Shown: piece by piece, positions 22,501-63,514 of the stretch
Layout: each line of letters opens with the position of its first letter
Numbering within the stretch: the first letter of the stretch is position 1
Source of the DNA: Cyrtodaria siliqua
Taxonomy: Eukaryota; Mollusca; Bivalvia; Adapedonta; Hiatellidae
DNA: 64,000 nucleotides
NCBI GenBank assembly: GCA_037043455.1
Contig: JAWPHD010000286.1
Location: forward strand, 457,227-521,226
Reading direction: 5' to 3'
Notes under the pieces: model-generated
Seen by the model: only the letters and a program-made list of their open reading frames with translations
Databases searched by the model: none
What the model was told of the DNA's origin: nothing
Translations under genes and position numbers: made by a program

Positions 22501-25500
22501 AATTTGACAAGGTACAAAGAAACGTGGAATTTTAATACTGTCCATTTCTCCATCTTTTGGAGGCTATCCAGCTGGCTTGTGGAACGTTGGTGGTTCTAAC
22601 CACTCGTGCACGAAAATTGCCCGGAGGGGCTCCTGGGTTCTTCCTCCACCAATTGAAACTGAAAAGTCGCCATAAGACCTTAGCTGTTGGGGCGACTATA
22701 AAATCCAATTCATTTCAGTTCTTTTGGAGGCAGCCGCAGCCCCATAGACAGCATGTTCAACTCCGAATCAGGAGATCACAGGTTCAGCCTTACCGGCGCC
22801 ACTGGAAGCTATTTGATGTTTCCTTAGGCAAGACCATTGGCGTAGCTACTATTAGGCCATATAGGCCCGGGCCTATACATCAATTTGAAAAATGAAAAAA
22901 AAGGGAAGTCCAAAAATGCAATAAAAACTGAAGCCGGTGTAAATACAGTGTAGATAATTCAACTTTGTCAAATGTTAATTATCAAATTTGTCAAAAATTA
23001 TTTTTTCAAATACCACACAAATGTTCTGTCAGATATACGCCAAAACTCGCCATTACATAGCTAAGTTAAAGAAACAAGAAATATCACTGTAAGTGATAAA
23101 TGCCCCCGAAGTGTCCTTTGACTTCTAAGTATGACCTTGACCTTGGAGCCATGGACCTGGATTTTGTGCACGACACGTCGTTTGGTTGTGATGAGCACTT
23201 GTGCCAAGTTATTTGAAAATCCTTCCAGGCATGCAAAAGTTATTGACCAGACACGATTTGACCTTTGACCTCTAAGTGTGACCTTGACCTTGGGGCCACA
23301 GACCTGGATTTTGTGCGCGACACATCGTCTTGTTGTGAGCACTTGTGCCAAGTTATTTGAAAATCCGTCCATGAATGCCAGAGTTATTGACCGGACACAC
23401 TATGACTTTTGACCTCCAAGTGTGACCTTGACCTTGAAGACCTGGGTTTTGCGCGAGACACATCGTCTTGTTATGATGATCACTTATTATTACAAGTTAT
23501 TTAAAAATCCCTGCAGGGGTTATGACGTTACGGTCCGGACACGAAATTGCGTACCTGTTTTTGACCTATGAACTGTAAGTGTGACCTTGACCTTTGAGGT
23601 ACGGACCTGGGTTTTACGCACAACACATCGTCTTGTTATGGTGATCACTTGTAATTTAAAAATCCCTGCAGGTGTTGTGACGTTACGGTCTGGACACGAA
23701 AATGCGTACATGTTTTTGACATATTAACAGCGAGTGTGACCTTGGCCTTTATGGTACGGACCTGGGTTTTGCGCGCGACACATCGTCTTGTTATGGTGAT
23801 CACTTGTGCCAAGTAATTTAAAAATCACTGCCGGGGTTGTGACGTTACGGTCTGGACACGAAATTGCGTACCTGTTTTTGACCTATGAACTTCAAGTGTG
23901 ACCTTGACCTTTAAGGTACGGACCTGGGTTTTGCGCGCGACACATCGTCTTGTTATGATGATCACTTGTGCCAAGTTAATCAAAAATCCTTATAGGGGTT
24001 TTGAAGGTACAGTTCGGACATGAACTGCAGAATGACCCACGGAATCCGGACAGACAGACAGATGGACGGTGCGATTACTATATGCCCCCGAAACCTTTGA
24101 AACCTTTTCTGGGGCATAAAAATTGACCCCCGAGTTTGTCGGGCCTATATATGCATTTCAGGTCAGCTACGCCCCAGAAGACACTTGCACTAGCAAGTCT
24201 GTCAGATGGGGATGTACACCGGGCAGTTCCGTATATTTAAGTTTATTCTTGGAGCATATTAAAGAACCTCAGGAATCTATGTGATAGTAAAAGTACAGGG
24301 CACTGTTCCCACCAGATTCCTTTGTATTTTCCATCCCCCTCTCTCAGCAGCGGCTCGAAATAGCCTAAACAGTGTTGATGAGCCTTTAAACAACAATTTA
24401 ATTATTTTGTATTAGTGCATTTCTTTTTTTCACACTGGTTAAAACTAAAAGTGCTATGTACACTTCCACATCGTCAGCAAGGCTTACCTATGATGTTAAC
24501 ACTTTTATAGTCATTATTATAAGAAACAATATTCCCATTAGCACCAGTATTTCTTGCATTGTCCATCGGCGTCTATGTTGTCCTTAAGCATCCTTTTATC
24601 TGTATCACTTGATAAATTTTACTCAAATTTCACATGTATGCTTCAGATATAGAGCAGACTATACAGACTGGAGGAATATCTGTTTAATCTGACATTCCAG
24701 ATGGCTGCCTTTTAATATTAAATTACCAAAACCTTAAAGATCAGGGCCCCGTTTTATGAAACAACTTACGACTATTTTTATTGTAAATCAATTTCTTAAA
24801 TGCTTCACCATAAATTACACTAAACGTGATTTCATTTCATTGTCTTATACATGTGATATTTCTGCACAAGTGCACATATAAATGTCATACTTTGAATGCT
24901 TATGCAGGTGAAAAAAGTAAAGGGCCCAGTGCTCCAGATAAGCTTTCAACACAATTCGTGTTGTAACGCATGAAAACAATTACATTTCATATTTACATTT
25001 ATAAATGTGTATTCTTAAAAAAAAGGTTTGGACAAAGCATTAATGTAAAATATTTACTCTAGTCATTACCATAACAAATATTGTGTATTCCTCTTCCCCT
25101 TAAGTACACATTCAGCATTGCTTCTGTATTTTTTAAATGACTAATTTGTGTCAAACAGCCGACAAAACGGCCATTTCTTTCCTTGCAAGCATGTACTAGT
25201 ATTTCCTGGAGGCTCCTGATTGTCATTCAGAACCTTATATTGCATACTTCAATTTAAGCATCTTTTGAGTATGACTTGGTGCACTCCACTTTTCTAAACT
25301 TTTGTGTACGTGGGAATTTGTTCCTAATATTTATCGACGATTTTAATGTGTGTTTTTGTACGCATTAATTTTATTTTTAATGCGTTATTTGGTTAAAAAA
25401 TACGCATAATTACGCAGATACGGTCTTATCTGGAGCACTGAACATTCTCTTCAGATTGCTAGATACTAAACTATCAAGTAGTGTCCTTTGTGCATATGAT

Positions 25501-43958: not shown

Positions 43959-44139
43959 GTTTTTATGAGATTCTATCATCACAAGGTCTGTGACATATTG
44001 CATTTTTTTATGAGATTCTATCATCACAAGGTCTGTGACATATTGCATGTTTTTATGAGATTCTATCATCACAAGGTCTGTGACATATTGCATGTTTTTA
44101 TGAGATTCTATCATCACAAGGTCTGTGACATATTGCACA
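43959..44139 (+). repeat. 45-bp minisatellite, four copies
   Basis: Unit GTTTTTATGAGATTCTATCA continued by TCACAAGGTCTGTGACATAT and TGCAT. The unit length is a multiple of 3, so repeat-peptide frames open on both strands; these are not taken as genes. It ends 5 bp before a MITE terminus. Confidence 0.95.
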
Positions 44140-44566: not shown

Positions 44567-44653
44567 TTAATGTGGCCAGTTACATTTCTTCGGATTTGAG
44601 GCTGGGCCTTTGAAGCACTGTCCCAACTTTTCACATCCTGGGGGTGACCAGTT
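44567..44653 (-). CDS. GALNS: GALNS terminal exon
   Basis: The minus-strand acceptor ATATTTCAG precedes AAC TGG TCA; 28 codons ([18 protein letters not shown] onward, ending NWPH) and TAA at 44567-44569. It aligns with the conserved C-terminus of GALNS. Confidence 0.93.
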
Positions 44654-47600
44654 CTGAAATATTTACAGAGCAAAATAGCAAAAATTATACGGCACTGAAC
44701 AGATTGTTGTTTAAATGGTCATCAGCACTTTTTTAGGTCATTTCGTGCCAACCCAGAGATAGGGGAAGGAGACATAAACCCCAGGAACCATGCTCTACTC
44801 TTACTATAGAATGTACATTTGGTTCTTTAACCTTTAACCTGCTACATATATATATAATGGACTGTTCTTTCTTTGAATTAAGACCATTACATTTATGGGA
44901 AAAAGGGGTGTTTTGGGGGAAATGACTGATCAGCAGCCAGACATTGTAAACCCTGATCAGTGAGTTGAATTGAATTGAATTGGGGTTTGACGGCGCACCA
45001 ACACAAAAAAGGTTATATGGCACCGAACAGGGATGAACATGCCAGGCTCATTCTCCATTTACATCTAGATAAAATATGGAGAATGGGCCTAGAACCTTCT
45101 AACCTGCAGAACTGCAGAGTTGCTGCAAATTCTATTGTAGACACTCCATTTACGACAGAGCCACGTCTCCACATTTGCATATGCGGTGTCATGAAGAAAA
45201 CCTTGAATGAGCATGATAAAAAAAATAGAAAATGAACATGATGGTGGGCGGGGTGGAGGTCCTACCCCTCTGCCTCTAGTGGGATTTGCAATGGTTGGAT
45301 TCTACCCCGTCAATCACACAGGGAACCTATCACCTCCAGATTCAGATTCAAACATGCTATCCACTGGGCCACCCACTGCAGCCCCTAAAAATTATATGGA
45401 AGTTGCCATCTTTTAATATCAATAGTTCCCTTGACAAAAATAGAGGGCTCTAACTATATTAAAGTCTGTTCTTTGCTACATATATAAAAATGCCTTAACT
45501 CAAACCACCTTGAAAGTAACCTCTTATATTAAAAAGTCAGATTCTTCACAAACTGATTTTCTGATATCTCTGCAACTTTTCCAGCTAGACCTTTATCTGA
45601 TTATTCATTTTACGATCCATCAACTCAGAGTTTCTGCTGTAGGATGGGGAAAATAATAATAATTTGAAAAAGCTAATTATTTATTTTTCGTCAGAAAGGA
45701 AAGAGAATGATATGTTCAATTGAAATCTGGTAGGTGGCAAAATAAAAACAAGAAATCAGTTGAAGTGATGGATGCTCCCAGAATAAAGGTACACGTGAAA
45801 TACAATCGGATGAAAAATGTAAGAGTTGAGCGGACAAGCTTTATATCTGAAAAACTTCGAAGACCCCTAACTCCGGCAAAAAAAAATTGATCAACCATAA
45901 CGTTCTGACAATATGTGCTACTAGACATCATATTCATACTTCCTACCAAGTTTCATGAAAATCAGATGAAAAATGTAGGAGGAGTTAAGTGGAAATACTT
46001 TACATTTCAAAAATTTCAAAGTCCCGTACTCGGCCAAAAATTATTCAACCAGAACATCCTGATAATTTGCGCTACTAGACATCATACATATACCTCCTAT
46101 GAAGTTTCGTGAAAATGGATGGAAAAATGTAGGAGTTGAGCGAACAAGAAAGTGGGACTTGATGGCAACTAATAAAGACTAAAATTCCCTAAAGAAAATA
46201 GAAATTCTTATTTTGATTTATCGGAGGTTGGTTCGTTAGACGTATAATCAAATGATAAAGGCCTAAACACCATTTACGATCCTACTGTACATCTAGGAAT
46301 TATGATATTTGATCATGCAGCACTAGTACAAGCACTGACCATGACTGCGTCATCACACCAGTCCAGCTGAGGTTTTCCTGGTTTGAGATTCCTCCTATGT
46401 TCGTCTGCTGCTTGTAATATAGGCACAATGCTGGTTTTGTACTCCTGGGAAGAGAACCTGCAATAAGACAATATCATGGGATACATGGATCGCCTGGATA
46501 ACGTCCTCCTCAAATGGACAGGGCAGAGTTCAGTAATTTATGTGTTACTAAGATGCACATCAACTGAATATTACCATAGGGATCTGACATGTCTTACGGA
46601 CTACCTGAAAGTCTGCCTGGATAACATTAAGGGAATATGCATCAAAATACTACATGAAGTTTTTTTTCTGAAATGGGACATACGATACCGGTGTAGCAGT
46701 CAATGGGACATACGATACCGGTGTAGCAGTCAATGGGACATACGATACCGATGTAGCAGTCAATGGGACATACAATACCGGTGTAGCAGTCAATGGGACA
46801 TACGATACCGGTGTAGCAGTCAATGGGACATACGATACCGGTGTAGCAGTCAATGGGACATACGATACCGGTGTAACAGTCAAATTTATCCCCCTCTGAA
46901 AGTTTCCCCGGGGAAAGAATTGGCTAGCTGATTCTTTCCCCGTGGAAATTTTAGCAGGGGGGAAAGAATTGGCTGTTAACCGGCAGCAGTAAATGTACAT
47001 TCAAAATGGTGTGGATGTCACCCCTGGTGACCACATACTTCTATTTTTAAATAAAAGTCATTTCAATTAGGACATTTACTTGGCTAACTTTTGGGTTAAT
47101 TAAAATATTTCTGCACTGAATGTCTATCTGGGAAAAATCTGGGAAAAATCCATAGGTAGTATTCACCTCCTTGCAAAATATACTGCGACACCGTTTGAGA
47201 TGTTTATGTTCAGGTGACAATCGCCGGCTAAAAACGGCCCAGATGACTATGCATTCTGTGCAAAATTTGGCACTTCTTGGATTGTTTCCAACAATTATGG
47301 AGATTTTTATTGTCAAAGTAGTGCATGCATAACAGGTGTATTTATTCAATATTGCTATAATGCAGGCCTATGAGGATTTAATTAGATGCATTATCCTTAA
47401 TGCATGCGCATATTTCAATGAAACTGAAGCACATTATGAGGGTTTTCTCTTAATTTTGTATTGGCACAAATTAACTGTACCATCCACTCTGCTTCCTTTT
47501 TTAAACATAAATATAAACATGTTTGTCTGCAATCATTTAGAGATGAATAATTAACACATTCTTAGTGATAAAGTCTTTGTTGAGGGGTTATATATCCCCC

Positions 47601-50600
47601 TCATATTCTCCATATAATCGGCCATTTACCCACACCTAAATATCCCCCATATATCCCCTAAATTTTGCCCAATTACCCCCCTAAAATTTCCTCTGGAAAT
47701 TTGGAACATCATCAACACACTGAAAAATATAAAAATGAACCAAATTACCTTAAAGGACTCTTAAAAGTAAGTTAAGATAAATGCATTGCATCTGAAATAA
47801 GTATTTAAAAACTTGGATTATTTTTAGAAAAAATAAATAATATGAATGACAGCACAGGTATTTAAGTCACTATCATTTTAAATTAACCATTATTATACAT
47901 ATAATGCCATGGTCATCTGTTTTGACATTGTTTTGTAATGAATCTATTGGGCATCAACCAAGTATAGAACAACTAACCTTTAAGAACAATACTTATTACA
48001 ATATATATTTTTGTTGTGAACAAAGTGAGCTAACTACATGATTTAACCCTTAACCTGCTAAGCACGACTATAATAGCCTTTGCGTCCATTGTAAACCCAG
48101 ATCAGCCTGGCCTACCAGTAACTCGCAGGCTGATCAGGATTTACAATGTCTGGCTGCTGATCAGTCGTTTTTCCCCAAAACACCACTTTGTCACATTAAT
48201 GGAATGGTCTTAATTCAAAGAAAGAATAGTCCATTATATATATGTAGCGGTTAAAATATTGCTCTATGACTTACTTAATGATGTATTTTTCCCCCGGGTC
48301 TCTTCCTAGATGGAACAACAATGGTAGAGCCGTGTGGTTCACTTGATCATGTGTCGTCACATTCTCGATGGACTCACCCGGGCAGAAATTTACACCCTGA
48401 AACAGTAACGAGAGGTCAGCCGGCAGTTTGTACAGTCTCTGTTCTAACATTAACAGATGGCTTCTATCATCAAAAGATGCAATGAGGACCGGATTACACA
48501 CAGTAAAATATTTAGTCCCAATTATAAGCATGGTTTATTATACGATATGTTCAGACGAACCTTAATATTTATTTTATTTGAAAAAAAAATGCATGTAAGC
48601 AACATTTAATTTAGTTTAAGGTGTCGCATTATTGATAGTAACGCTTCTGATATAAAAGAAATCCGCGGATTCACATGTCTCGCCTAACGGGGGCGGGATT
48701 TAAAAATAAAAGATAAATGATGCTTAAATGAAAGTTTGTAAACATCTGAATAACTAAAAACAATGGAGTTTACAGTTTGCTGAGATGACATTTAAGTGCA
48801 TTTGTTTAAAAACAAAATGCCATTATATAAAAAAGAAATAACAAAAAGAAATAAAACAAAAACATCAGCTCCAAAAAAGTAGGTCAAGGTCAAAGATGAA
48901 ATCCATGCATCCAAAATCCATGCATCCAAAAAGATGCACTACCCAAGACACAACTATGTCAAAATAGAATGTTTTGTCTTCCAAAGATAAAGCTATAAAC
49001 TAGGTTTAAAGCATCTAGTGCATAATTATAGTTTATGAGAAAGTGATGTAAATGTAACAATTAAATGAATCTGCCCTTTGCTTGGATGGTGAAGGTCACA
49101 TCCACATTTGCTTTTTGACATGTACTATCCAAGAAATAACTATAAGCAAAGTTTGAAAGGTCTAATGCATAAAGTTTGTGAGAAAGTGACCTAAACGCAA
49201 ATGTTGAAGGTAAAAATTATTAAGTTATCTGCCCCTTGCTTTTAGGGTCAAGGTCACATCAACAATTGCTTTGTCACGTTGCGATGTACCACCCAAGATA
49301 CAACTATAAGCAAAGTTTGAAAGGTGTAGTGCATACAGTTTGCGAGAAATTGACCTCAACGCAAAAGTTGAAGGTAAAAATTATTAAGTTATCTGCCCTT
49401 TGCTTGGAGGGTCAAGGTCACTTTCACATTTTCTTTGTGACGTTGCAATGTACCACCCAAGACACAACTATAAGCAAAGTTTGAAAGGTCTAATGCATAA
49501 AGTATGTGAGAAAGTGACCTAAACGCAAATGTTGAAGGTAAAAATTATTAAGTTATCTACCCCTTGCTTGGAGGGTCAAGGTCACTTCCACATTTGCGAT
49601 GTACCACCCAAGATACAACTACATGTATAAGCAAAGTTTGAAAGGTGTAGTGCATACAATTTGCTAGAAATTGACCTCAACGCAAAGTTGAAGGTAAAAA
49701 TTATTGTTATCTGCCCTTTGCTTGGAGGGTCAAGGTCACATCCAAATTTGCTTTGTCACATTGCAATGTACTCAAGATACAACTATAAGCAAAGTTTCAA
49801 AGGTCTAGTGCATACAGTTTGTGAGAAAATGACCTAAACGCAAAACTTGAATGTTGACGCCTTCGCCGCCGCTGGAAAAGCAACACCTATGTCTCTTTTT
49901 TTTCTTCGGAAAGGCGAGACAAAAAACAACAAAACAGCATCCTTTTTTCTCTAACAAACTGGCACTGTGTACAAGGTAAATTTACAACTATGAAATGAAC
50001 TTTCACATTGATATTTTCTATTGTAAAGGGACAAAATGTAACACTGTTACAGAAGTCTAAAAATTATTCCTTATTTACAAGGAAATTTATTCCACGCAAT
50101 ATGTGTTATCATACGTTAAGCACCAGGGTTAGTTAACCTTTAACCCACTAAGCACGACTATAATAGCCTTTGCCATCATTGTAAACCCAGATCAGTATGC
50201 GAGTAACATAAATGGAATGGTCTTAATTCAAAGAAGGAACAGTCCATTATATATATGTAGCGGGTTCAGGGTTGTTAATTAAGCATTTTAAGTTTGTTTG
50301 TTTGTATGGTGTTTTACGTCATTTTCAACACATGTAAGGTTATACGGTTAATTTTTTGTGGTGGAGGCAATGACCCACTTTTCCTGGGTAGAACCAGTAC
50401 TGTAAGCCTCCTGCCATCCGAAGAATCGACACTTCCTCACTTACAAAAGCATTTTAAGCCAAATTTCTTTCTAAATCTTTTGCCCGCTGAATTCAAGTCT
50501 TAGACCTAAACAAACTGGTGCTAACACCACAGTTAGACTGAATGGCATTTTTATCATGAAATGGAACATTTTTGAAATTAAAGATTTTACTAGAAATAAC

Positions 50601-53600
50601 CTTACGTACCCCATTTATCATAATAGTATCTTAAGGGTGGGGATGGGCAGAAGGAACACAAATAAGGATTCCAGGTACTGGGGATGGAGAGGCAGTATGA
50701 GTAAAATACTTACAGCTTTAAATTCTGCAACAGAATTGGTCCACGTCCAAAAGTGGGCTTTATATTCTCCCAATCTGAGGGCCATCAGCTCGTTACCACG
50801 GTAATAAAACATTGGTCTGAAATATACAGCATATTGTCTGGAAGAAAGCGTTATCTTTCTCAAGTCGTACAGCCGTAAGCTCAGTAATAAAGCAATCGTC
50901 TGAAACATGTCTATTTATATTTTCATAGTCTGCTGAACATTGTCTTACTGCCAAGAAGAAGCCATAATTTACAGGTCCATGTCCATAATTTACATGTCCC
51001 TATAAGTAATTTTAACACCTAAATGTATATATTAAATAAATAGTAACTCTTCTTCAAATTTTCGAACATTTGTTCTTTTTCAAGAAAAAGCACAGAAATA
51101 CAACTTTTAAGTAAAATCCATCTTGTTGTTTAAATGGCTGACATTTAAACAACAAGATGATAATGTCAGTCATTTAAACAACAAGATGGGTTTTACTTAA
51201 AAGTTGTATTTCTGTGCTTTTTCTTGAAAAAGAACAAGTGTTCGAAAATTTGAAGAAGAGTTACTATTTATTTAATATTGAATTAACTTTCCTTTTGAAA
51301 GACTATACAGATATGAATACTAAAATTGTGTCTGTAGAAATGAATGCCCTCACTTTGATTTATGCAACTAAAATAAGGCTATAACTCCGCCGATTGTCAG
51401 TGGATCCGAACAGCGTCAAGATTTGTACAACTAGACTTCTAACTGATCCTTCCTACCAAGTATCATCAAAATATGTTGAGAAGTTCAGGAGAAGTAGTCT
51501 GGGCAAGAAAGTATGGTATAAGTATCTATGGTAATGTACATATGAACTGACAAGGACAACACTATTCACCCCTCTCCCTTATATGGTAGGGGCATACAAA
51601 TAATAACTAACTATTTACTTGTATGTTTGTTTATTTACAAACAGAATCTTAATTATACAAGGCAGTAGTTACCCACCTGTTGACAACTTTGTTGCTTAGA
51701 AGCACCTCAGACAGGTCTATCCCATCCACCACTCTGTCGGTGGGAGGCTCCTGACCAGCAAGTATCACCAATGTCGTATATAGGTCCATCAGCGAGCCGA
51801 GTTGATGGGACACCTAAAACACATAAACTCTCACAACTATATGTAATACTAGTATGGTCTCATCGAGTTGGTTGATTTAAACATCGAGATGGGCATAGCA
51901 AGTCCATTTCATCTGTCTGCCATACTCTTTAACTTCCGATAACTGGTAGTAAGAGTAGACCAATCATTGACAGGAAATATTTTCAAATAAATGATTTACA
52001 ACTGTGCAAAAACAAAGGAAAAATCAGCAACCATGCTACAAATGCCCATCTCGATGTTTAAATCAATCAACTTGATAAGACCATACTCTATTACCTAACG
52101 CTACTGATATTATAAGCCTGTAGCTGTAAAAGCACAAGGCCATATCCAATGACCTACCAAGATTTGAAGACTGTAGGTTAATGGAGTCTTAACTGAGCTA
52201 AATGCAACCTAAAACATTAAGACATACACCATCATAATTGATCTTACCCATTACTTAGATATCTCCACCCTATTGTTGATTTTGACAATAGGTTGTACAC
52301 GTATTATAATTAAGTTGCACGTGCTAATGTTTGTCGGAGGTATGATATTGATCTGATTGGTTGAAATGGATTTTGATTGACAACTGGTGCAAGATCAGTT
52401 ATAAGTTAACACTATATCAATATTATAAGTGTGCAGCTGTAAACGTGCAAGTCAATGTTCATTGAGTACCAAGGCATCTTGTATAAAGTTTCAAGACTGA
52501 AGGTGTAAATGCTGTCTTAGAAACTGAGCGAAACGCAAGTCGAATGGACTTGACAAGCATTTCATTAATGCAGCTCAACAATCAAACCATTGCTCAAACA
52601 AAATACGAACAGATTATACCTGTCCTGGCTGTATCTTGGTGGGCCACCATGCTATTGACGGCTCCCTCATGCCTCCCTCAAATGTTGTCTCTTTACCACA
52701 AAGGAATGGGCCATTACTGCCCCCTATATGAACAAAATACATTCTGATATTATGACATTGTGCTGTTCAACATATGCTGAACATTCTGATTTTATAAACA
52801 AGAGGGCCAAATGGCCCTGAATTGCTCACCTGGTGACCCTTGTCCATTGTAGACGCTAGCAAAAGTGGGTCTAATAAAAGAGACAATGGATAGACGATGA
52901 TCAAGTTTTAAACAAGAGGCCCAAGAGGGCCTGTGGACGCTGTACTTGCTAAAACGGCTCTTATATCAAGGGTTGTCATCCCAAAATTCCCATCAGTACT
53001 TATTTAAAAAACATTGCAAAAAAACCCCACAAAACAACAACACCCACAACAGAAACTTAATGCTATGCTAATCCATGCTAACAATTTAAACAAGTGGCAC
53101 TAGTTCTAATTTGGAATGGTTATTTAGGGACTCGAGGCACAACAATTGTTTAAATGGGTTTTGACCACCTGTAGAGGGGCCCCTTTATGCAGGCGGTCAA
53201 AACCCATTTTATGTAATTGTTGTGCCTCGAGTCCCTAAATAACTAAATTAGAACTATGGATTGTTTTTAGTAAAAACAGATGTTTCCCCTACAGGAGAAA
53301 GGGCCATAAATCCGCCAAAAATCATTCAACCAGAACAAGACAATGATAATTATATGCAACCAAGTTTCGTCGAAAGCCGAATAGTGGTTAAGGAGAACTA
53401 GTCCGGACAAAGTTTGTGTATTAAAACGTTTTAAACTCCAACAAATATCATTCAACCGGAACACAACAACGATATGCGCAAATAGGCTTGGCCATTTTAG
53501 CTAATCTGATTTTACTGGGGGGAAAAACGTAAAAAAAGAGATTCAGGTATTGAATATTCCTGCCAAGTTTCACTGAAATCCAGCCAGAGGTTCGGGAAAA

Positions 53601-56600
53601 CTAGTCGGACTGTCTGGATAAAGTTTGTGTATAAGGGGCCAAAACTCTGCCAAAACTCTTTCAACAGGAACACGGCAAACAACTAGGTTTGATACTGATT
53701 ATCCTTGCCAAGTTTCGTTGAAATCTGGCCAGGGGTTCAGCAGAGCTAGTCCGAACTTTCATTGATATTAATAATCTGGTAAAGATCGGATGAAAGGTCG
53801 GATAAAAAAAGGAGGCCCTCGAGTGTTGAGAAGACAAAATATAGCAATTTTCGTTAACTCAAGGGCAACTCCAGTGTTACTGGTTTTCGAACTCGTCCAA
53901 GCTTTCATTAATACTAAAAATCTGGTAAAGTTTGGCAAAGATCGGATGAAAAATGGAGGCGCTGGAGAGATTGTTGACAAAATATAGCAATTTGTTTAAT
54001 TCAAGGGCAATAACTCCGATGTTACTGGTCCGATCTGGCCTCGTTTTCGAACTCATCCGAGCTTTCATAGATATTAATAATCTGGTAAAGTTTGGTAAAA
54101 ATTGGATGAAGAAGTTGCCAGAGTGACGTTATTTTTTACATCAAAAAGTTAACGGACGGACGACGGACAAAATACAATGGCATAAGCCAGTAGAGCTAAA
54201 AATCAAGACTGCTTCGGATTTGTAGGGTGATTTTGTCGTTATCTGGCAGGTTAGTTTCTTAACATAAATAACGTGTGGATGAATGGTTAATCATTTAACA
54301 ACCTACCATGTATTTTACCCACTTTTGCAGCACCATTATCAGACGAGAAAAATACAAACGTATTCTCCTGTATTCCGAGTTGTTTCAGCCTGCTCAGGAT
54401 TTTACCAACTCCATAATCCAACTCTCGCACCACGTCGCCATACCTTCAACATCGAGAACAGAATATAACAACTCACCCGACAGTTTTGCATATGCTGCAG
54501 CGCCGTTATCAGACGAGAAGAATACAAAAGTATTTTCGTGTATTCCTAATTGAACAAGTTTGTTGAGGATTTTACCGACACCATAGTCTAACTCACGTAC
54601 CACATCTCCATACCTAGGGAAATGCAATGGGAAATTCATGTTTGAAACTTAATCATATGAATTCCATGTGTTAAGCTTTATTTATGGAGCGAAGAGAAAA
54701 TTAATTTGGAGTGAGGGGAAATAGCCCATTTATATTCTATTTTGTTGAAGTATCTATAAGAACTGTATCTGTAGGTTTTAATGAATATTAACCCTTAATC
54801 CGCAACATGTACTCACAGGCTGATCTGGGTTTACAATGGACGCAAAGGCTGTTATAGTTGTGCTTAGTGGGTTAAGGGTTAATGTACATTTTGCAATTTT
54901 TTGACTTGTAAGTGAGGAAGTCGATTCTTACGGACGGCGAAAGGTGTACAGTACTGGTTCTACCCAGGAAAGGCGGGTGGTCTGCCTCCACCACAACAAA
55001 TCGACCATCATATATAACCTTTTATCACATAACGTCCCTTGTTAGCAGTGTCGAACACTCATTTAATATTCTATTGTATGACACACCTGTAATACAACCT
55101 GGAACGATTTTGATTGGTTGAGTTAAACCTTTAACACTACGCAAGTTTATTAACTGAAACTATTTTATTTATTACAAATTCACCCAGATCTGAGTCATAA
55201 ACTTATTATTGTGACAGCTTATAAAAATAATGCACGTTATACAAAACATTGTTGTTGGTTTGTTAAAAAGTTGGCGTAGACTGCTATTTTGTAAAGAGGT
55301 AAAACACAAACTCTTTTATATGCAGCGTTATGTGTGAGACGCGACGTTACAACGTCACATATTTTATGACGTTTTGGCGCTAAAGTGTGTCTGACGTCGT
55401 GGCGGTTCTATGTCCATCTGAATTATTTTAAACTAATTTGATTGCAGTGTTATATGATAAAAAGAATCTTAATCTGGTTCCCATTCCATATAAGATTTAT
55501 GAAACTCGTCATGAATTATTTTTAATTTTAACTCGCCGAAAGGCTCGTTAAAATTAAAATTATTCATAACTTGTTTCATAAATCTTATATGAAATGGGAA
55601 CTCGTTTAAGATCCTCTATATATGTGTTGAAAATGGCGTAAAACTCTATACAAACAAACAAACAAAATTATAGTCATATACTTGATTGAAGTTACAACTT
55701 TTTTTGCAACATTTAACACTGGTGTCAATGGGAAAAGTAACTGGTGGTATCATACCTTGACATGAGACGAGAGTGTATAGTATTAATCATTCCCACTAAC
55801 TAACAGTTGTCTCCCTTTTACCATCGTTGAGACTGAATGATTCCTATTCGTTGTTCGGGGCGCTCGTTTCAGTTAAAGTTTTTTTCAGCATTAACATGAC
55901 CAATTTTAACAATACATACTTAAAGGGACACATGGCAATCTTGAAGTGTTTGAAATGGGTGTCTCAATTTATATATCCAGTATCATTTTTACTTTTACCC
56001 TGGTTACATTTAAATAAATCAAATTTTAAGCATTCACTATTTCGTCTTATTATACTAAGTTTTAATATATTATTGGTGCAATAATATCAAAAATTAATAA
56101 TATGCAAAAACAAATGGCTTAATACAATTCTTATAATTAACATTAATGAATGAACAAATGCAATTTATGTAGAAAACTAATGGGACGAGGCTAGTTCTTA
56201 AACAAGAGGCCCAAGAGGGCCTGTGGACGCTCTACTGGCTAATATGGCTCTTATGACATCAATGAAGCGAGTGACTATCGTCTTAAAGAGGCAAAATATA
56301 CTATTTTTAACTTTATCAAGAGCAGTAACTCCGTCATTACGGGTCCGATCTGGCTGGTTTTCCAAGTTGGCCAGTAGAGATAATAAAAATAAAAATAAAA
56401 AATTCAAAAAAAAAGAAAAAATAAAAATAAAGAATATAAAAAAAAAATTCAAAAAAAAAAAAAAAAACATTTAAAAAAAAAAATTAAAACAAAAAATATG
56501 AAAAAAAATAATAATAAAAAAAAGAAAAAATAAAGAAATTAAAAAATTTAAAACAAGCGTTGATGTAAAACTGTGACCCCCGGGGCGGGGCCAGATGTGA

Positions 56601-59600
56601 CCCCAGGCATTTGAACAAAAATAAGCTTATAGCAACAGCAAAATATTAAACCTCTGGCTCTTGCAGTTTCAGAGAAGAAGATTTTTTAAATTTTTCCCTA
56701 TACATGTCTATGTAAAACATGTGACCCTTGGGGCGGGACCAAATGTGACCCCAGGGTCACCATTTGAACAAACTTGGTAAAGGACCATAAGCTTATAATA
56801 ATTGTAAAATATCAAACCTCTGGCTCTTGTAGTTTCCGAGAAGAAGATTTTTAAAAAAAAAATCCTATATAAGTCTATGTAAAACTGTGACCCTCGGGGC
56901 GGGGACAAATTTGACCCCAGGGTCACCATTTGAACAAACTTAGTAGAGGACCATAAGCTGATGCTACATGTAATACATGAGAGCTCTGTGCCTTGTGGTT
57001 TCAGAGAAGAAGAGTTTTTAAACTTTTTTCCTATATGTCTATATGAAAAACATGCAAAAGCTCAATATACAAATTTTGGACCCCCGGGGCACGGCCATTT
57101 TTGACCCCGGGGACTTTATTTGAACAATCTTGATAGTCTAGGCGTTGACGATCATTTTAAAAGAAAAACTGTTGAAATCTGTCCAGCGGTTCTGGAGAAG
57201 ATTTTTTAAGGTTTCGACCATATATGGTAATGGCAGCCATCTTGGATGTAGCGCTGACCTAATTTTAACAAATCTAAAAAGCATTCATCTAAGGATCATC
57301 CATGTGAAGTTTGGTCAAAATTAGCCAAGCGGTTCCTGAGGAGAAGTCGTTTGAAGAAAAGTTAACGGACGACGGACGGACGACGGACGACGGAAGACGG
57401 ACAACACACCATCCCATAAGCTCTGCTGGCCCTTGGCCAGTAGAGCTAAAAATCAATAAAAAATAAAAAAAATAATTAAAAAAAAAATATTAAAAAAAAA
57501 GTAATTCAAAAAAATAAATCCCTATACATGTCTATGTAAAACATTTGACCCTTGGGGCGGGGTCAAATATGACCCGAGGGTTACCATTTGAACAAACTTG
57601 GTAAAGGACCATAAACTTATAGCAAATGCAAAATATTAAACCTCTGGCTCTTGCAGTTCCAGAGAAGAAGTTTTTCCCTATACAAGCATTTATGTAAAAC
57701 TGTGACCCCCGGGGCGGGGCCAGATGTGACCCCAGGGTCCCCATTTGAACAAAATTGGTAAAGGACCATAAGCTTATAGCAACAGCAAAATATTAAACCT
57801 CTGGCTCTTGCAGTTTCAGAGAAGAAGATTTTTTAAGTTTTTCCCTATACATGTCTATGTAAAACATGTGACCCTTGGGGCGGGGCCAAATGTGACCCCA
57901 GGGTCACCATTTGAACAAACTTGGTAAAGGACCATAAGCTTTTAGCAAATGCAAAATATTAAACCTCTGGCTCTTGCAGTTCCAGAGAAGAATTTTTTTT
58001 CCAGTTTTTCCCTATACAAGCATTTATGTAAAACTGTGATTCCCCGGGGCGGGGCCAAATGTGACCCCAGGGTCCCCATTTGAACAAAATAGGTAAAGGA
58101 CCATAAGCTTATAGCAACAGCAAAATATTAAACCTCTGGCTCTTGCAGTTTCAGAGAAGAAGATTTTTTAAGTTTTTCCCTATACATGTCTATGTAAAAC
58201 ATGTGACCCTTGGGGCGGGACCAAATGTGACCCCCAGGGTCACCATTTGAACAAACTTGGTAAAGGACCATAAGCTTATAATAAATGTAACATATGAAAC
58301 CTCTGACTCTTGTAGCTGGCGAGAAGAAGATTTAAAAAAAAAAATCTTATATAAGTCTATGTAAAACTGTGACCCTCGGGGCGGGGACAAATTTGACCCC
58401 TGGGTCACCATTTGAACAAACTTAGTAGAGGACCATAAGCTGATGCTACATGTATTACATGAGAGCTCTGTGCCATGTGGTTCCAGAGAAGAAGATTTTT
58501 TTCAGTTTTTCCCTATACAAGCCTATGTAAAACTGTGACCCCCGGGGTGGGGCCAAATGTGACCCCTGGGTCACCATTTGAACAAACTTGATAGAGGACC
58601 ACAAGCTTATAGCAAATGCAAAATATTAAACCTCTGGCTCTTGCAGTTTCAGAGAAGAAGATTTTTTAAGTTTTTCCCTATACATGTCTATGTAAAACAT
58701 GTGACCCTTGGGGCGGGGCTAAATGTGACCCGAGGGTCACCATTTGAACAAACTTGGTAAAGGACCATAAGCTTATAGTAAATGCAAAGTATCAAACCTC
58801 TGGCTGTTGTAGTTTCCGAGAAGAAGATTTTTTAGAAAAAAATCCTATATAAGTCTATGTAAAACTGTGACCCCCGGGGCGGGGACAAATTTGACCCCAG
58901 GGTCACCATTTGAACAAACATAGTAGAGGACCATAAGCTGATGCTACATGTAATACATGAGAGATATGTGCCTTGTGGTTTCAGAGAAGAAGATTTTTTA
59001 AAGTTTTTTCCTATATGTCTATATGAAAAACATGCAAAACCTCAATATACAAACTTTGGACCCCCGGGGCACGGCCATTTTTGACCCCAGGGACTTTATT
59101 TGAACAAACTTGATAGTCTGGGCATTGGCGATCATTTTAAAAGAAAAACTGTTGAAATCTGTCCAGCGGTTCTGGAGAAGAAGATTTTTTAAGCTTTCGA
59201 CCATATATGGTAATGGCAGCCATCTTGGATGTAGCGCTGACCTAATTTTAACAAATCTAAAAAGCATTCATCTAAGGATCATCCAGGTGAAGTTTGGTCA
59301 AAATTAGCCAAGCGGTTTCTGAGGAGAAGTCGTTTGAAGAAAAGTTAACGGACGATAGACGACAGACAGACGGACGACGGACGACGGACAACACACCATC
59401 CCATAAGCTCTGCTGGCCGTTGGCCAGTAGAGCTAAAAATCAAGATTGCCATGTGTCTCTTTAAATGATATCATTAAACTGAATTTTCAATGCATTCTGT
59501 CCTATGAAATACAACTTTCACCCGTGATTTTTTTATTTCTCAACCAATTTTTAAAAGTAAGGGGATTATTTACCACTTAAAATGTCTGTTTCACACTGAT

Positions 59601-60373
59601 ATATCTTATTTATGTAAAAGTGGCATTTCGTCTTAAAAAGTCTAAAATACTGTCGGCCGAAACAAGAGCCCCAAACAATAGCTCTAGGAGGCTACACATG
59701 AGGTGACGTCATCTTATGAATTTACTTTGGTAAACGTGTAAACTCTACTTACAATCCCCTACGACTGGTACCAAGAAACGGTTTGGAAGCATACAGGGGC
59801 TCATGGGTAGCGTCCACTGCCCAGTACAGGAAAAACGGCTGCTGTTTGGATGACTGAGATTCAATAAAGGTCAAGGCTTCCTGTCAAATATTAAAATACC
59901 AGGAATAATATCAAACAGAAACTAGATGCACATTCCTCCACCGAGAAAGAATGAAAAGTAACTGGACCATTGTTAAAACATTACCCCCATCATGATAGGA
60001 ACAATTTAAGCCATTCATTAAAAGAAAAGAAAGTTTTGAGAATGCCAAATTTGGTCAAAAAACAGATGCCTTCATTCATGAAAAGCTTTTTAAAGAAATT
60101 GTGAATACCACATTCAAATTGAGGGCTATTTCATTTAAATTTACCTGCAGGTACATACACTGTCTTAATGAATATAAACAACATTCACTGAAAAACTAAT
60201 TACCACACAAACCTTGTCTATTTTAAGAAAGCTTAAATTAAATATTAAAAACAGAACACGCTAAGATCCAGTTAAATATAGGGTGTACGGCAACAGTAAG
60301 TCATACCTGGATATACATTTGTGTGAGATTAGACTCCCCAGTGTGCCTGTCAATCACAAAGTCTTGGTAATAC
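44567..60373 (-). CDS. GALNS: N-acetylgalactosamine-6-sulfatase (GALNS-like), 3' exons; 5' end outside the window
   Basis: GALNS is a lysosomal sulfatase that removes 6-sulfate from chondroitin and keratan sulfate. Nine exon positions join in frame (5' to 3'): 60307-60373, 59753-59880, 54477-54613 or 54307-54443, 52620-52723, 51677-51813, 50714-50816, 48275-48396, 46340-46457 and 44567-44653. They total 1003 nt, 333 residues plus stop. Landmarks in order: [40 protein letters not shown] (the Asp-Asn calcium ligands), [70 protein letters not shown] and the Cys-rich end [13 protein letters not shown]. All junction phases agree. Human GALNS has 522 residues, so about 190 N-terminal residues, including the formylglycine site, are missing. 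The third position is duplicated (see the exon entries). Introns are packed with repeats. Confidence 0.93.
44820..44965 (-). repeat. CTTAACC/GATCAG repeat, copy 1
   Basis: Inverse of the unit at 48048-48255: TAATGGACTGTTCTTTCTTT, GAATTAAGACCATT and GACTGATCAGCAGCCAGACA. Further copies are at 50135-50275 and 54788-54890, all in or beside GALNS introns. Confidence 0.75.
44960..45395 (-). repeat. SINE with GAATT-type tail, copy 3 (most complete)
   Basis: On the minus strand it begins GGGGCTGCAGTGGGTGGCCC with an A-box-like CCCAGTGGATAGC, continues through the shared body, and ends CCCCAATTCAATTCAATTCA. Head, body and pentamer tail indicate a tRNA-derived SINE. Confidence 0.7.
45396..46160. other. 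GALNS last intron: degraded tandem repeat
   Basis: Two to three units contain CCAAGTTTCATGAAAATCAG, GAAAAATGTAGGAGTTGAGC and CTACTAGACATCATA. A relative is at about 51360-51500. No exon here. Confidence 0.55.
46340..46457 (-). CDS. GALNS: GALNS exon (penultimate)
   Basis: The acceptor TCTTATTGCAG precedes G|TTC TCT TCC, giving [20 protein letters not shown] and later [12 protein letters not shown]. The donor is ATG|GTCAGT, with an unusual C at +3. Phases 2 in and 0 out fit both neighbours. Confidence 0.9.
46673..46882 (+). repeat. 30-bp minisatellite, seven copies, in a GALNS intron
   Basis: Unit ATGGGACATACGATACCGGT plus GTAGCAGTCA, repeated exactly seven times with a few substitutions. 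It opens decapeptide-repeat frames on both strands. Followed by a hairpin of GGGGAAAGAATTGGCT and its complement at about 46904-46975. Confidence 0.95.
48048..48255 (+). repeat. CTTAACC/GATCAG repeat, copy 2
   Basis: Fullest copy: AACCCTTAACCTGCTAAGCA, CATTGTAAACCCAGATCAGC, GGCTGCTGATCAGTCGTTTT and TTAATGGAATGGTCTTAATT. It ends 20 bp before a GALNS exon. Confidence 0.8.
48275..48396 (-). CDS. GALNS: GALNS exon
   Basis: The acceptor CTGTTTCAG precedes GGT GTA AAT, giving [17 protein letters not shown] and [17 protein letters not shown]. The donor is ATTAA|GTAAGT, phase 2. It is conserved with the [20 protein letters not shown] block. Confidence 0.95.
48872..49915 (+). repeat. Tandem-repeat element in a GALNS intron
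   Basis: Five units of about 155-165 bp share GGTCAAGGTCACATCCACAT, CCACCCAAGATACAACTATA, AGCAAAGTTTGAAAGGTC and AAGTTATCTGCCC. It ends near a GTCTC...GAGAC hairpin (49892-49920). Confidence 0.8.
50135..50275 (+). repeat. CTTAACC/GATCAG repeat, copy 3
   Basis: Shortened copy of 48048-48255 with an internal deletion after AACCCAGATCAG. Confidence 0.75.
50283..50505 (+). repeat. SINE-like dispersed repeat
   Basis: Phrases TGTATGGTGTTTTACGTC, GTGGTGGAGGCAATGACCC and CCTGGGTAGAACCAGTACTG recur as reverse complement at 54890-55030, with the missing end at 55612-55665. Confidence 0.65.
50714..50816 (-). CDS. GALNS: GALNS exon
   Basis: The acceptor GTATATTTCAG precedes A|CCA ATG TTT, giving [20 protein letters not shown] and [14 protein letters not shown]; donor GCT|GTAAGT, phase 0. 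This is the strongly conserved FYYRG...KAHFWTW segment. Confidence 0.95.
51029..51278. repeat. Long near-perfect palindrome in a GALNS intron
   Basis: Arms of about 108 bp (ATATTAAATAAATAGTAACT to CATCTTGTTGTTTAAATG) surround a short spacer with a second ATTTAAACAACAAGATG. Very few mismatches between arms suggest a young fold-back element or recent gene conversion. Confidence 0.9.
51677..51813 (-). CDS. GALNS: GALNS exon
   Basis: The acceptor GTGTTTTAG precedes GTG TCC CAT, giving [20 protein letters not shown] and later [12 protein letters not shown]; donor AACAG|GTGGGT, phase 2. It aligns with the GALNS VSHQLGSIMDLFTT block. Confidence 0.95.
51853..52091 (+). repeat. Dispersed hairpin repeat, copy 3 (diverged)
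   Basis: Starts GTATGGTCTCATCGAGTTGG with TTTAAACATCGAGATGGGC, and ends with CCCATCTCGATGTTTAAATC and ACCATACTCTATT in inverse order. This gives a TIR-like arrangement around the middle part shared with 365-605. Confidence 0.65.
52620..52723 (-). CDS. GALNS: GALNS exon
   Basis: The acceptor TTCATATAG precedes GG GGC AGT AAT, giving [20 protein letters not shown] and [15 protein letters not shown]; donor CAG|GTATAA, phase 0. It receives a phase 1 exon, as supplied by either copy of the duplicated exon. Confidence 0.94.
52912..54199 (+). mobile_element. CTGTGGACGCT-family tandem-repeat element
   Basis: Starts ACAAGAGGCCCAAGAGGGCC and contains a palindrome at 53096-53262 and units with GGTAAAGATCGGATGAAAAA. 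It ends ACGGACGGACGACGGAC then CCAGTAGAGCTAAA. A separate ACAAGAGGGCC start lies just upstream at 52798. It sits in a GALNS intron. Confidence 0.75.
53096..53262. repeat. Fold-back palindrome, second copy of 35343-35510
   Basis: Arms start CTAGTTCTAATTTGGAATGG and include GGGACTCGAGGCACAACAAT; the right arm is their reverse complement around TAGAGGGGCCCC. Confidence 0.85.
54307..54443 (-). CDS. GALNS: GALNS duplicated exon, copy B (downstream alternative)
   Basis: On the minus strand it follows GATGTTGAAG and ends CAT G|GTAGGT: 137 nt, phase 2 in and 1 out. It encodes [16 protein letters not shown], then [23 protein letters not shown] and KVGKIHG. Both calcium-ligand residues (Asp-Asn of SDNG) are kept. 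It is the same length as copy A. Nine codons change the residue and sixteen differ synonymously. Its acceptor is only 33 nt from copy A's donor. Confidence 0.85.
54477..54613 (-). CDS. GALNS: GALNS duplicated exon, copy A (upstream alternative)
   Basis: On the minus strand it follows CATTTCCCTAG and ends TCG G|GTGAGT: 137 nt, phase 2 in and 1 out. It encodes [16 protein letters not shown], then [23 protein letters not shown] and AYAKLSG. Its splice sites are closer to consensus than those of copy B, so it is probably the default form. Joining A to B would break the frame. Confidence 0.9.
54788..54890 (-). repeat. CTTAACC/GATCAG repeat, copy 4
   Basis: Reverse complement of part of 48048-48255 (GGCTGATCTGGGTTTACAAT, GTTATAGTTGTGCTTAG). 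Confidence 0.7.
54891..55665 (-). repeat. SINE-like repeat (inverse of 50283-50505) with insertion
   Basis: 54891-55030 and 55612-55665 are the two parts of an inverse copy. About 580 bp lies between them, including a fold-back at 55464-55614 whose arms carry GTTCCCATTCCATATAAGAT and AATTTTAAC. Confidence 0.6.
55920..59464. mobile_element. MITE, TTTAAAGGGACAC family, copy 3, split by a 3.2-kb insertion
   Basis: The left part 55920-56201 (TTAAAGGGACACATGGCAAT onward) and the last 27 bp (ATCAAGATTGCCATGTGTCT and CTTTAA) are the two ends of one MITE. The tandem-repeat element 56202-59437 interrupts it just before the right terminus. Confidence 0.8.
56202..59437 (+). mobile_element. Compound tandem-repeat element, GTGACCCC-rich units
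   Basis: Starts ACAAGAGGCCCAAGAGGGCC, then an A-rich stretch, then units of about 160 bp (GTGACCCTTGGGGCGGGGCC, ACCATTTGAACAAACTTGGT, CCTCTGGCTCTTGCAGTTTC). One complete end (GGACGACGG run, hairpin CTGCTGGCCCTTGGCCAG, TAGAGCTAAA) occurs at about 57360-57448. A second array of about nine units then ends the same way at 59437, so two elements are fused or tandemly duplicated. Confidence 0.8.
59753..59880 (-). CDS. GALNS: GALNS exon
   Basis: The acceptor ATTTGACAG precedes GAA GCC TTG, giving [20 protein letters not shown] and [20 protein letters not shown]; donor GGATT|GTAAGT, phase 2, matching both copies of the duplicated exon. It includes the conserved [17 protein letters not shown] block. 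Confidence 0.95.
60307..60373 (-). CDS. GALNS: GALNS exon (most 5' one found)
   Basis: The acceptor ATATTTAG precedes G|TAT TAC CAA, giving [20 protein letters not shown] and IQ; donor CAG|GTATGA, phase 0. The first base completes a codon from an exon not found in the window. It matches the YYEEF...TGEANLTQ-Y segment of GALNS. Confidence 0.9.
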
Positions 60374-60760: not shown

Positions 60761-61279
60761 ATTTATTGCACCTCGCACAAAATCCTAGGAATTTCATTGG
60801 ATTAGAGCAGTCACATGGTGACCCTCTATTATTCTATAGTGGGTCAGTAGATTTCATAGAGGGTCACTAAAACAATATGGACTACAATCCCGATTCAAAG
60901 TTTAAATCATTTGCAAATTGTTCTTTAAGGGGTTAGTAACAAACACAAGATCTGTCGGAGAACAGCGCAACTCTCCATGGTTCATACAGACTTTTCAAAC
61001 CCAAATTTAGGGCCTTTTTAGGGCCTTTTTAGGGACATTTTCGCTAAATTTAGGGCCTCAATATTTATAGCATAATTATGCGTTTGACTAAAATTCCTGC
61101 TTACTGCTACAGTAAAACCCCTCTAAAGTGACCCCTACAAGAAGATAGGTGGCAGCTTAATGCAGCATGATAGTATTGTAGAAAGCTCCTCTAATAGCTT
61201 TCTGCAAACTATAGTGCTGCATTAAGCAGTCACCTGTAAAAAAAAACACTAAATGTGTATATTGTAAGCGGTTGCATTA

Positions 61280-62068
61280 TTGTGTGTGTGTGTGTAGTTC
61301 TGAGGTTTAACGTCCCTCCACCAACAAACACGACAAGGTAGCCCTGCCGCGATGGGCACAATAGAGTCTGGACGGTTGTAGTTGGTGTGTGTTGGTTGAT
61401 CTGGTGCTGCTGTGTTGCTGTGTCGTCGTTTCTCTTGTAGATGTGTAGTGCTGTGTCGCTGCTGCTCTGTGTAGTTGTCGCTGTGGCGGTGAAGTGGTGG
61501 TCTGGTGGTCGAGGTGGCCTGCATCCGCTACGGTGGTGAAGCTACATCCGCTAGTGTATTGCCCTACAGCCGCTAGTGGTCGGGGTCCTTGTGTTTGGGG
61601 CCACACCCGTCACATATGGCCCCTGCGCTGCTGACATCATCTGGATAGCTGTGTGGATGGTACCCCTCCCTCTTCAGCTGGTTGACTACGGTCGAATGTA
61701 GGCCTCGGCGTCGATCCCTAACTATTACTGACTAGTTACTTCTACGTTGTTACATCTACTCTGTGTTGGTGGATCTCGGCTCCGGCCCGCGGACTTCTGT
61801 CTTCCAGCTTCCAAGCGAGTTCACTGCTATCTGATCAGATGATGGCTGCCTTGACGGGGGCGCAGGGGACTTCTTCACTATCAGTCAAGTGACACTCAGG
61901 CTCCTGAACCGAGACAAACCAGTTCAGAAGTGCCAGTGTGTTAGTCACTATAACGCGAATATAGTGATTTACCACACCAGTAATGTTGTACAGCGTACCC
62001 CCATACAAACACCATGAGTGTCACCAGTGCCCTCTCCGCGACGTGCACGCTGTGAAGAGCAGGAGAAG
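61280..62068 (-). mobile_element. 789-bp retroposed insert with 14-bp target duplication
   Basis: AAGCGGTTGCATTA occurs exactly at both edges (61266-61279 and 62069-62082). The insert is clearly more GC-rich than its surroundings. On the minus strand it ends in a (CA)n tail next to the left duplication, as target-primed retroposition would leave. No known SINE head, LINE protein or gene was recognised; a long frame is not conserved-looking. Confidence 0.75.
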
Positions 62069-62224
62069 AAGCGGTTGCATTAGCTGGGTTTTACTGTATT
62101 TATAGCCAATAAACCTGGACCTACCTAAGATTAAACAGTTTTCAGCTCTGTGGCCTTGTCCACAGGTATTCGGGAGTAGCTTAGACTTACACTTGAATTT
62201 TCCAGAAAAAAAAAACAACATCAT

Positions 62225-62400
62225 TTAAATACTAATCAAACATTAAAAACACAAATTTAAAAAAAAAAAATTTTTTTTTTTTTTTATATTAGTACAGTAT
62301 ATTAAATTTGTGTTTTTAATGTTTGTTTAAATACTAATCAAACATTAAAAACACAAATTTAAAAAAAAAAAAATTTGTGTTTTTAATGTTTGATTAGTAT
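62225..62400. repeat. Double palindrome with A/T homopolymer cores
   Basis: AATACTAATCAAACATTAAA, AACACAAATTT and their complements occur twice around poly-A/poly-T cores, giving two nested hairpins beside the MITE at 62401. Confidence 0.75.
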
Positions 62401-62919
62401 TTAAAGGGACACTGTCCGTAAGTAAGCAGATATTGAGCATAACCAAATAACTGTCTGACCTTTGTTCAGTGAAATGTATACATGAAAACATGAGCATAGA
62501 CCCTAAGAAGTCTGTAGTAATGCATTCGTGAGTTTGAAAAAAAAAAGCTTAAATTATTATTTGTAAATAAAGTGGGACCCACCGTATTTACCTTTTCTGC
62601 GATCACGTGACTTCCATTAGCACATTAGGTTTTCACCACAGTATGTATTACTCAATACGTATAGCCCGGTTAGCTCAGTTGGGAGCTAGGTCGACCACTT
62701 TACGCTCACGCTCACTATTATTACTGCGAGTGTAATTTTAGTTTGGGCTGCGAGTTCAAACGCCCGATATGGTTTTTCTTTTTTTGGTACCTGCGATAGA
62801 AATCCTTCAAACAATCCTGCTTTAATTAGTAAACATTCAATAATGTTTAGTGTGTAATGTTTGCGAACATAATTAGTGTGTGTTTTATAAGCAAAAAGTT
62901 ACGGACAGTGTCCCTTTAA
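62401..62919. mobile_element. MITE (TTAAAGGGACACTGTCC) carrying a tRNA-like segment
   Basis: Perfect 21-bp terminal inverted repeats begin TTAAAGGGACACTGTCC; TTAA at both ends may be the target site. The interior includes a tRNA-like segment (62663-62769). Confidence 0.85.
62663..62769 (+). other. tRNA-like pol III promoter segment inside the MITE
   Basis: GCCCGGTTAGCTCAGTTGGG resembles a tRNA 5' end and A box; CGAGTTCAAACGCC resembles a B box, and a T run follows within 15 bp. The A-B distance (about 75 nt) is longer than usual and the 3' strand does not pair with GCCCGGT, so this is not called a tRNA gene. Confidence 0.5.
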
Positions 62920-63514
62920 CTGATGTTGTTGTTTTTTTCTGAAATTATTTTTTTTTAATTATACCCCACCCACTCCCCCAAATATTGGCCGCGATTTTTC
63001 AAAAACGGCCGTGCAAAAATGGCTGCACGGTTGGCTCAGTCGTTGGCTGGCTAATAACTTCCCCTCTGAAATATAACCGAGTATGAATCAAACTGAGTAC
63101 GATGTACAATAGTACAAATCTAATTTCGTAGGAGTTGTCGTTCTTGAATTCATTCTATTTTTAGAAATTTCGTAGGAGTTGTCGTTCTTGTATTCATTCT
63201 ATTTTTAGAAGCAACAACACCTTGACGGCCCAAATAATGTGCGAAATGAAATTTAGGGCCACCAAAACTAATTTTTAGGGCCGTATAGAGTAAATTTAGG
63301 GACTTTTTAGGGCCTGACATGCAATTTAGGGCCTTTTCAAGCAACTCATCAAAATTTAGGGCCTTTTCAAGTCTGTGCGAACCATGCTCTCCTATTCGAT
63401 TTTTCAGAGAATAATAAATTATATAGCCAGTATATACCATCAGAAAACAAGGCTAAAACAATGTGGGGTGGAGTTGGGGGACGGGCCTTGTATAAAAACT
63501 CGGGCCGACATAAA

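Follow-up and report, generated by a model that had tools for sequence, protein, structure and literature searches.

Two adjacent copies of one GALNS exon as candidate mutually exclusive exons in the bivalve Cyrtodaria siliqua

Introduction

Does the sulfatase gene GALNS of the bivalve Cyrtodaria siliqua give rise to two forms of its enzyme through an either/or choice between two neighbouring copies of a single coding exon? The GALNS enzyme, N-acetylgalactosamine-6-sulfatase, takes 6-sulfate off the galactose or N-acetylgalactosamine of sugar chains. The question came from a sequence-only reading of the window (the whole stretch of DNA analysed here, 64,000 nt), which described the two copies and proposed that they are too close to each other to be spliced together. 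Duplicated mutually exclusive exons of equal length are a known kind of gene arrangement, as described in the parts of PMC5740500 and PMC9741552 available to us; all other papers cited below are likewise used from the parts at hand. Here, we analysed the pair, its gene and its second occurrence in the assembly, and we consider that the two copies, called exons A and B, are probably mutually exclusive exons.

Results

The exon pair lies in a GALNS gene

The gene runs on the minus strand of the window, with the following parts in the direction of transcription (a slash marks the exon-intron boundary):

about 60307..60373, minus strand: GALNS exon further 5' (boundaries by eye)
59753..59880, minus strand: upstream flanking GALNS exon (exon a), 128 nt, ...SRRG, donor GATT/GTAAGT
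54477..54613, minus strand: exon A (upstream copy), 137 nt, acceptor ..TTTCCCTAG, donor CGG/GTGAGT
54444..54476, minus strand: spacer from A to B, 33 nt, holding A's donor, a 28-nt AG-free stretch and B's acceptor
54307..54443, minus strand: exon B (downstream copy), 137 nt, acceptor ..GATGTTGAAG, donor ATG/GTAGGT
52620..52723, minus strand: downstream flanking GALNS exon (exon c), 104 nt, ...KIQPGQ, holding the lysine that matches human K310
51677..51813, minus strand: GALNS exon, 137 nt
50714..50816, minus strand: GALNS exon, 103 nt
48275..48396, minus strand: GALNS exon, 122 nt
46340..46457, minus strand: GALNS exon, ...DDAVM (boundaries by eye)
44567..44653, minus strand: last GALNS coding exon, with the stop codon

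Judged from its relatives, the gene carrying the exon pair is GALNS, as had been proposed. Among the 53 PDB sequence matches to the protein of the joined exons, human GALNS ranked first (4fdi, E 1.3e-117, query residues 1-283), followed by arylsulfatase A (3e-44). Residues 186-519 of the GALNS protein of Mercenaria (P0121, 519 aa) aligned in collinear order with ten exon stretches, and the other copy of the duplicated exon aligned as well. The 5' exons of the gene lie outside the contig, which ends where the window does, and two earlier exons, spanning P0121 residues 104-187, sit on another contig of the assembly, C18578 (39,278 nt). Mercenaria was also the top named relative over the exon-pair region among the matches listed in a protein search seeded with B. 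Its protein is identical to exon A at 41/46 residues (89.1%) and to exon B at 38/46 (82.6%); it is A-like over the greater part of the exon and has the I-H of B where the exon ends. No near-identical protein was found among the matches listed in three protein searches, 120 in each of two and 60 in the one seeded with B.

Either copy keeps the reading frame, and both or neither break it

Pairwise comparison of the two 137-nt copies showed that 101/137 positions are identical and 36 nt differ, and a tblastn search matched the copies to each other with an E value of 4e-21, beyond what chance would give; the two exons are true homologues. No third copy was found within the window, where the next-best tblastn stretch had an E value of 0.15. 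Our re-measurement of the copies gave the arrangement described before, with identical phases on entry and exit, intact splice sites (the acceptor of A ends in CCCTAG and that of B in TTGAAG), 33 nt in between and open frames, a single frame being open in both.

The spliced translations also agreed with the earlier claim that the frame is lost when both copies or neither are included. No stop interrupts the translation of a-A-c-d-e-f or a-B-c-d-e-f, and the frame is broken in both a-c-d-e-f and a-A-B-c-d-e-f: the 137 nt of one copy are in frame, and insertions of 0, 274 (A+B) or 307 nt (A+spacer+B) are not. A single longer exon that retains the spacer was ruled out, since its 307 nt are out of frame and run into stops.

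A search for a trace of duplicated intron flanks was negative, with 8/14 positions agreeing at bases 7-20 after the donors of A and B, a level that was reached by 310/6626 random intron 14-mers and is not significant.

The copies differ mostly in a loop beside the catalytic centre

A recount of the codon differences between A and B gave the same 16 synonymous and 9 amino-acid-changing ones as reported by the sequence-only reading. That reading had also placed replacements at all of the last six residues: the differences do cluster there, but the copies share one lysine (exon codon 43) and differ at 5/6 of these positions. Codons 40-45 thus hold 5/9 of the replacement and 0/16 of the synonymous changes. 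The metal-binding SDN motif is present in both copies, as stated before, and the cluster adjoins it, which upholds the claim that the copies differ next to the active site.

According to Table 3 of PMC7404199, as far as available to us, the active-site residues of human GALNS include D288, N289 and K310. In our alignment to human GALNS (4fdi), the exon's SDN corresponds to residues 287-289 and K310 lies in the next exon (c), so that the five clustered differences lie in the loop between them; the residues matching D288, N289 and K310 are kept in either form. The predicted structure of Mercenaria P0121 (mean pLDDT 81.8) shows the exon as a helix (251-272), a strand (279-285), the SDN motif and the loop, and the block of the model that holds this loop (291-300) has a pLDDT of 61, too low to place the loop.

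The loop was then compared with that of 37 named mollusc proteins, which were hand-picked by their printed names and are partly non-independent. Positions 40-42 are occupied by T in 35/37, Y in 37/37 and A in 33/37 of them. Exon A keeps this mollusc-type loop (A/T-Y-A-K). The loop of exon B reads K-V-G-K, and B's K, V and G at positions 40-42 were found in 0/37 of these proteins. The four other replacements between A and B are at variable sites, including one V-to-K change where the residue of B is the commonest one in molluscs (15/37).

The complete K-V-G loop of B was absent from the 281 distinct proteins listed, in a database that keeps one protein per 90%-identity cluster and would not display a B isoform next to the listed protein of a species. 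A lysine at position 40 was found in 9 of the 279 motif-bearing proteins among these 281. The nine are a Ridgeia protein (P0052) and eight near-identical bacterial proteins with SDNGPWKVFRSHGG (P0234-P0241, one of them named verrucomicrobial) that were retrieved by the B-seeded search, with 60 matches listed. A loop starting with K-V does exist in other sulfatases, which is evidence for its occurrence and not for the activity of B.

The duplication is old and both copies look constrained

Between A and B, we estimated a dS of 1.287, a dN of 0.173 and a dN/dS of 0.134, and 9/17 comparable four-fold sites differ. With a dS of 1.29 and a dN/dS of 0.13, the duplication is old and both copies appear to have been constrained. 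The changes are distributed unevenly along the exon, with 9 synonymous and 0 replacement changes in codons 1-16 and 7 synonymous and 4 replacement changes in codons 17-39, upstream of the loop cluster.

These values were compared with simulations of a copy that evolves without constraint. When all 36 differences were placed at random in one copy, a stop-free result with 9 or fewer replacements was obtained in 0/3000 runs; with half of the differences at random, it was obtained in 0.0275 of 2000 runs and, with a third, in 0.486 of 2000 runs. When one copy was left to drift freely for 0.2, 0.3, 0.4 or 0.64 substitutions/site, the last value being half of the observed dS, the pattern appeared in 0.016, 0.0002, 0 and 0 of 5000 runs, respectively. 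The simulations indicate that neither copy has been free of constraint ever since the duplication, and a recent release of one copy from constraint is possible.

Variation between the window and contig C18578 was also considered. Over the 307-nt pair, there are 3 differences, all of them in A: two replacements (alanine or threonine at codon 40, glutamine or histidine at codon 21) and one synonymous difference. The threonine allele of codon 40 is the residue found in 35/37 named mollusc proteins. The 0/170 differences in B plus the spacer are weak evidence at a nearby divergence of about 1%. Over the ten exons (1147 nt as cut), the contigs differ at 5 synonymous and 5 replacement codons, of which A has 1 and 2 and B none. 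Given that A varies and B does not, exon A could be the less constrained copy.

We weighed on this basis whether one copy might be a silent or nearly silent relic, both copies having once been used and only one, most likely A, being spliced now. What speaks for such a history is that B's K-V-G departs from residues that are nearly fixed in the 37 mollusc proteins, that A's splice signals score somewhat higher (donor consensus at 8/9 positions in A and 7/9 in B; pyrimidine content before the acceptor 0.75 and 0.65) and that a weak drift, with one third of the differences neutral, fits the data (0.486). B has nevertheless retained its open frame, both splice sites and its length at a dS of about 1.3, with 9 synonymous changes and not a single replacement over codons 1-16; the pyrimidine content before its acceptor is not below that of the constitutive exons (c 0.55, d 0.55 and e 0.50), and it is B, not A, that is identical between the contigs. 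We therefore regard the relic as unlikely; if only one copy is used, the other is an ordinary relic that is strangely well preserved.

The short spacer probably imposes an either/or choice

The mutually exclusive use of A and B remains our preferred reading, and it would work as follows. Long ago, an internal coding exon of a bivalve GALNS gene would have been duplicated in tandem, giving exons A and B. The branch point of B would be located within the 33-nt spacer or else in exon A, so close to A's donor that, with U1 bound there, no spliceosome could form over the spacer. Splicing from A to B would then fail, and the donor at 59753 would be joined to the acceptor of one copy, A or B, and the donor of that copy to the acceptor at 52723. 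The reading frame would back up this exclusivity, messages with both copies or neither being out of frame.

The steric limit between a donor and a branch point is put at about 50 nt in the available parts of PMC7969005 and PMC5740500, and the same principle is described for two-exon clusters in that of PMC6071210. The earlier statement that an intron of 33 nt is too short to be spliced normally agrees with this limit. Since B's acceptor is preceded by an AG-free stretch of 28 nt, a normal branch point of B would be no more than about 33 nt away from the donor of A; a branch point inside the spacer is forced to be less than 50 nt from that donor, and a location in exon A is also possible. A strict yTnAy scan found no branch-point motif for B and none for A. 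Reading by eye, we would guess that B uses the adenine of GTTAT at 54466, the 11th base of the spacer. Because A's signals are somewhat better and B has an acceptor at least as good as those of c, d and e, we would expect A to be the default exon and B the regulated one.

A and B could also be joined at times, the frameshift and the ensuing decay of the message being what makes them exclusive, perhaps with a lowering of GALNS output. The A+B message is indeed out of frame and, in the part of PMC5740500 at hand, human clusters that are exclusive by frame are commoner than those exclusive by short distance (377 vs 57 of 629), but an intron of 33 nt with an AG-free stretch of at most 28 nt is far under the limit of about 50 nt, which makes such joining quite improbable.

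RNA structure was assessed as a further possible element of the choice between A and B. The fold of the spacer was no better than that of shuffled sequences (z -0.32, 68/200), and 2/14 tests of exon-intron duplexes reached the level of 1/60 shuffles, which is unconvincing after 14 tests. One of the two is an inverted 18-nt match, exact over its first 12 positions and 16/18 in all, that links 54311-54328, at the divergent end of exon B, to 52859-52876 in the next intron and the duplex energy of which was equalled by 1/60 shuffles. The other, an unplanned duplex between the middle of A and the downstream intron, scored equally. The 18-nt match could be a chance event, a long-range RNA helix or the trace of a template switch behind the K-V-G loop of B.

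A second contig carries the same pair

A DNA search of the 2.88-Gb assembly returned 2 matches, the window and contig C18578 (99%), each with the full 307-nt pair, and C18578 agrees with the window in its GALNS exons and their order. In the intron adjoining the pair, the contigs align over 607 nt with 4 mismatches and 5 gap positions and, on the opposite side of the pair, over 132 nt with 4 mismatches and 2 gap positions. C18578 is most likely the other haplotype; it is possibly a recent segmental duplication, in which case the pair would be equally real.

The sequence-only reading had named an assembly artefact as a way in which its claim could fail, with two haplotype versions of one exon strung together: the assembly does keep separate contigs for two apparent haplotypes, but the second, collinear contig has both copies in full, also separated by 33 nt, and the copies differ at 26% of their positions, against about 1-3% of aligned sites between the contigs near the pair, so that this explanation can practically be dismissed.

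The contigs differ further in two large segments. A segment of about 3.2 kb from the intron upstream of exon A (window 56202-59435), including a 166-nt tandem array in 9 copies (57519-59015), is absent from C18578, where the flanks meet at 24323/24324. About 2.4 kb (window 60973-63392) are also absent from C18578 (25853/25856); their ends resemble terminal inverted repeats by eye (CATGGTTC..ACAGACTT), and this segment is probably a polymorphic DNA transposon. Other tandem arrays lie in or near later GALNS introns, at 49069-49851 (164 nt), 46672-46883 (30 nt) and 44000-44137 (45 nt).

Discussion

If both forms are made, C. siliqua would have a sulfatase with a pocket edge that is chosen by splicing. 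The A form might then be the ordinary enzyme, keeping the mollusc loop, and the B form a variant with a more basic loop of smaller residues between the positions equivalent to human N289 and K310. The loop of B might tune substrate preference or stability, activity not being abolished. One step beyond, it is possible, if somewhat doubtful, that the A form is lysosomal and that the B form, in which K-V-G-K for T-Y-A-K is flanked by the metal ligand and the sulfate-binding lysine, acts by preference on a different sulfated polysaccharide, such as one from the diet or from mucus, with tissue-specific splicing serving both turnover and digestion.

The use of both forms would also provide a natural experiment, in which 45 residues with 9 differences, 5 of them adjoining the catalytic metal site, would show which residues after the SDNG motif set the preference of a sulfatase. 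For human GALNS, this question bears on the Morquio A variants located in this exon region and, for molluscs, on the digestion of polysaccharides.

The protein records of GALNS (human 4fdi and Mercenaria P0121) show no second version of this exon, whose SDN motif both copies retain. In the literature searched, restricted to open-licence papers, we found no report of such an exon pair in a sulfatase. Mutually exclusive exon clusters in human genes, as described in the available part of PMC5740500, consist like A and B of neighbours with similar sequence and length and the same frame, and involve, as we propose for GALNS, a distance of less than 50 nt from donor to branch point and a frameshift upon joint inclusion. 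The GALNS pair shows the features by which such clusters are recognised there, namely neighbouring similar exons of similar length, in the same frame and with no in-frame stop; the human clusters were defined with splice-junction reads, the GALNS pair from the genome sequence.

In OGDH (exons 4a/4b), branch points too near the donor of the upstream alternative exon are reported to enforce the choice (PMC7969005, part available), as we propose for GALNS, but these are distant branch points in a longer intron, while in GALNS the proximity would follow from the length of the 33-nt spacer alone, which would make it an extreme case of enforcement by spacer length. The selectivity-filter exons of NALCN, as far as PMC9741552 is available to us, are also duplicated, exchange the functional centre of the protein and occur in invertebrates as well; NALCN is an ion channel with ion selectivity as the reported effect, and GALNS is an enzyme.

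By analogy, the nearest functional parallel would be the a/e switch of COQ2 (coq-2), whose exons 6a and 6e are, like the GALNS pair, equal-length duplicates in a metabolic enzyme. In the portions of PMC7434440 and PMC12403961 at hand, these a/e exons are described as mutually exclusive, 134 nt long in C. elegans, remodelling the core of the enzyme, and are reported in helminths, annelids and molluscs. The switch between ubiquinone and rhodoquinone was shown there by mutants and by RNA-seq across phyla, while the GALNS choice is predicted from DNA and concerns a sulfatase of the lysosomal type. If the proposed change of substrate by the B form is true, the GALNS pair would be the sulfatase counterpart of the COQ2 switch.
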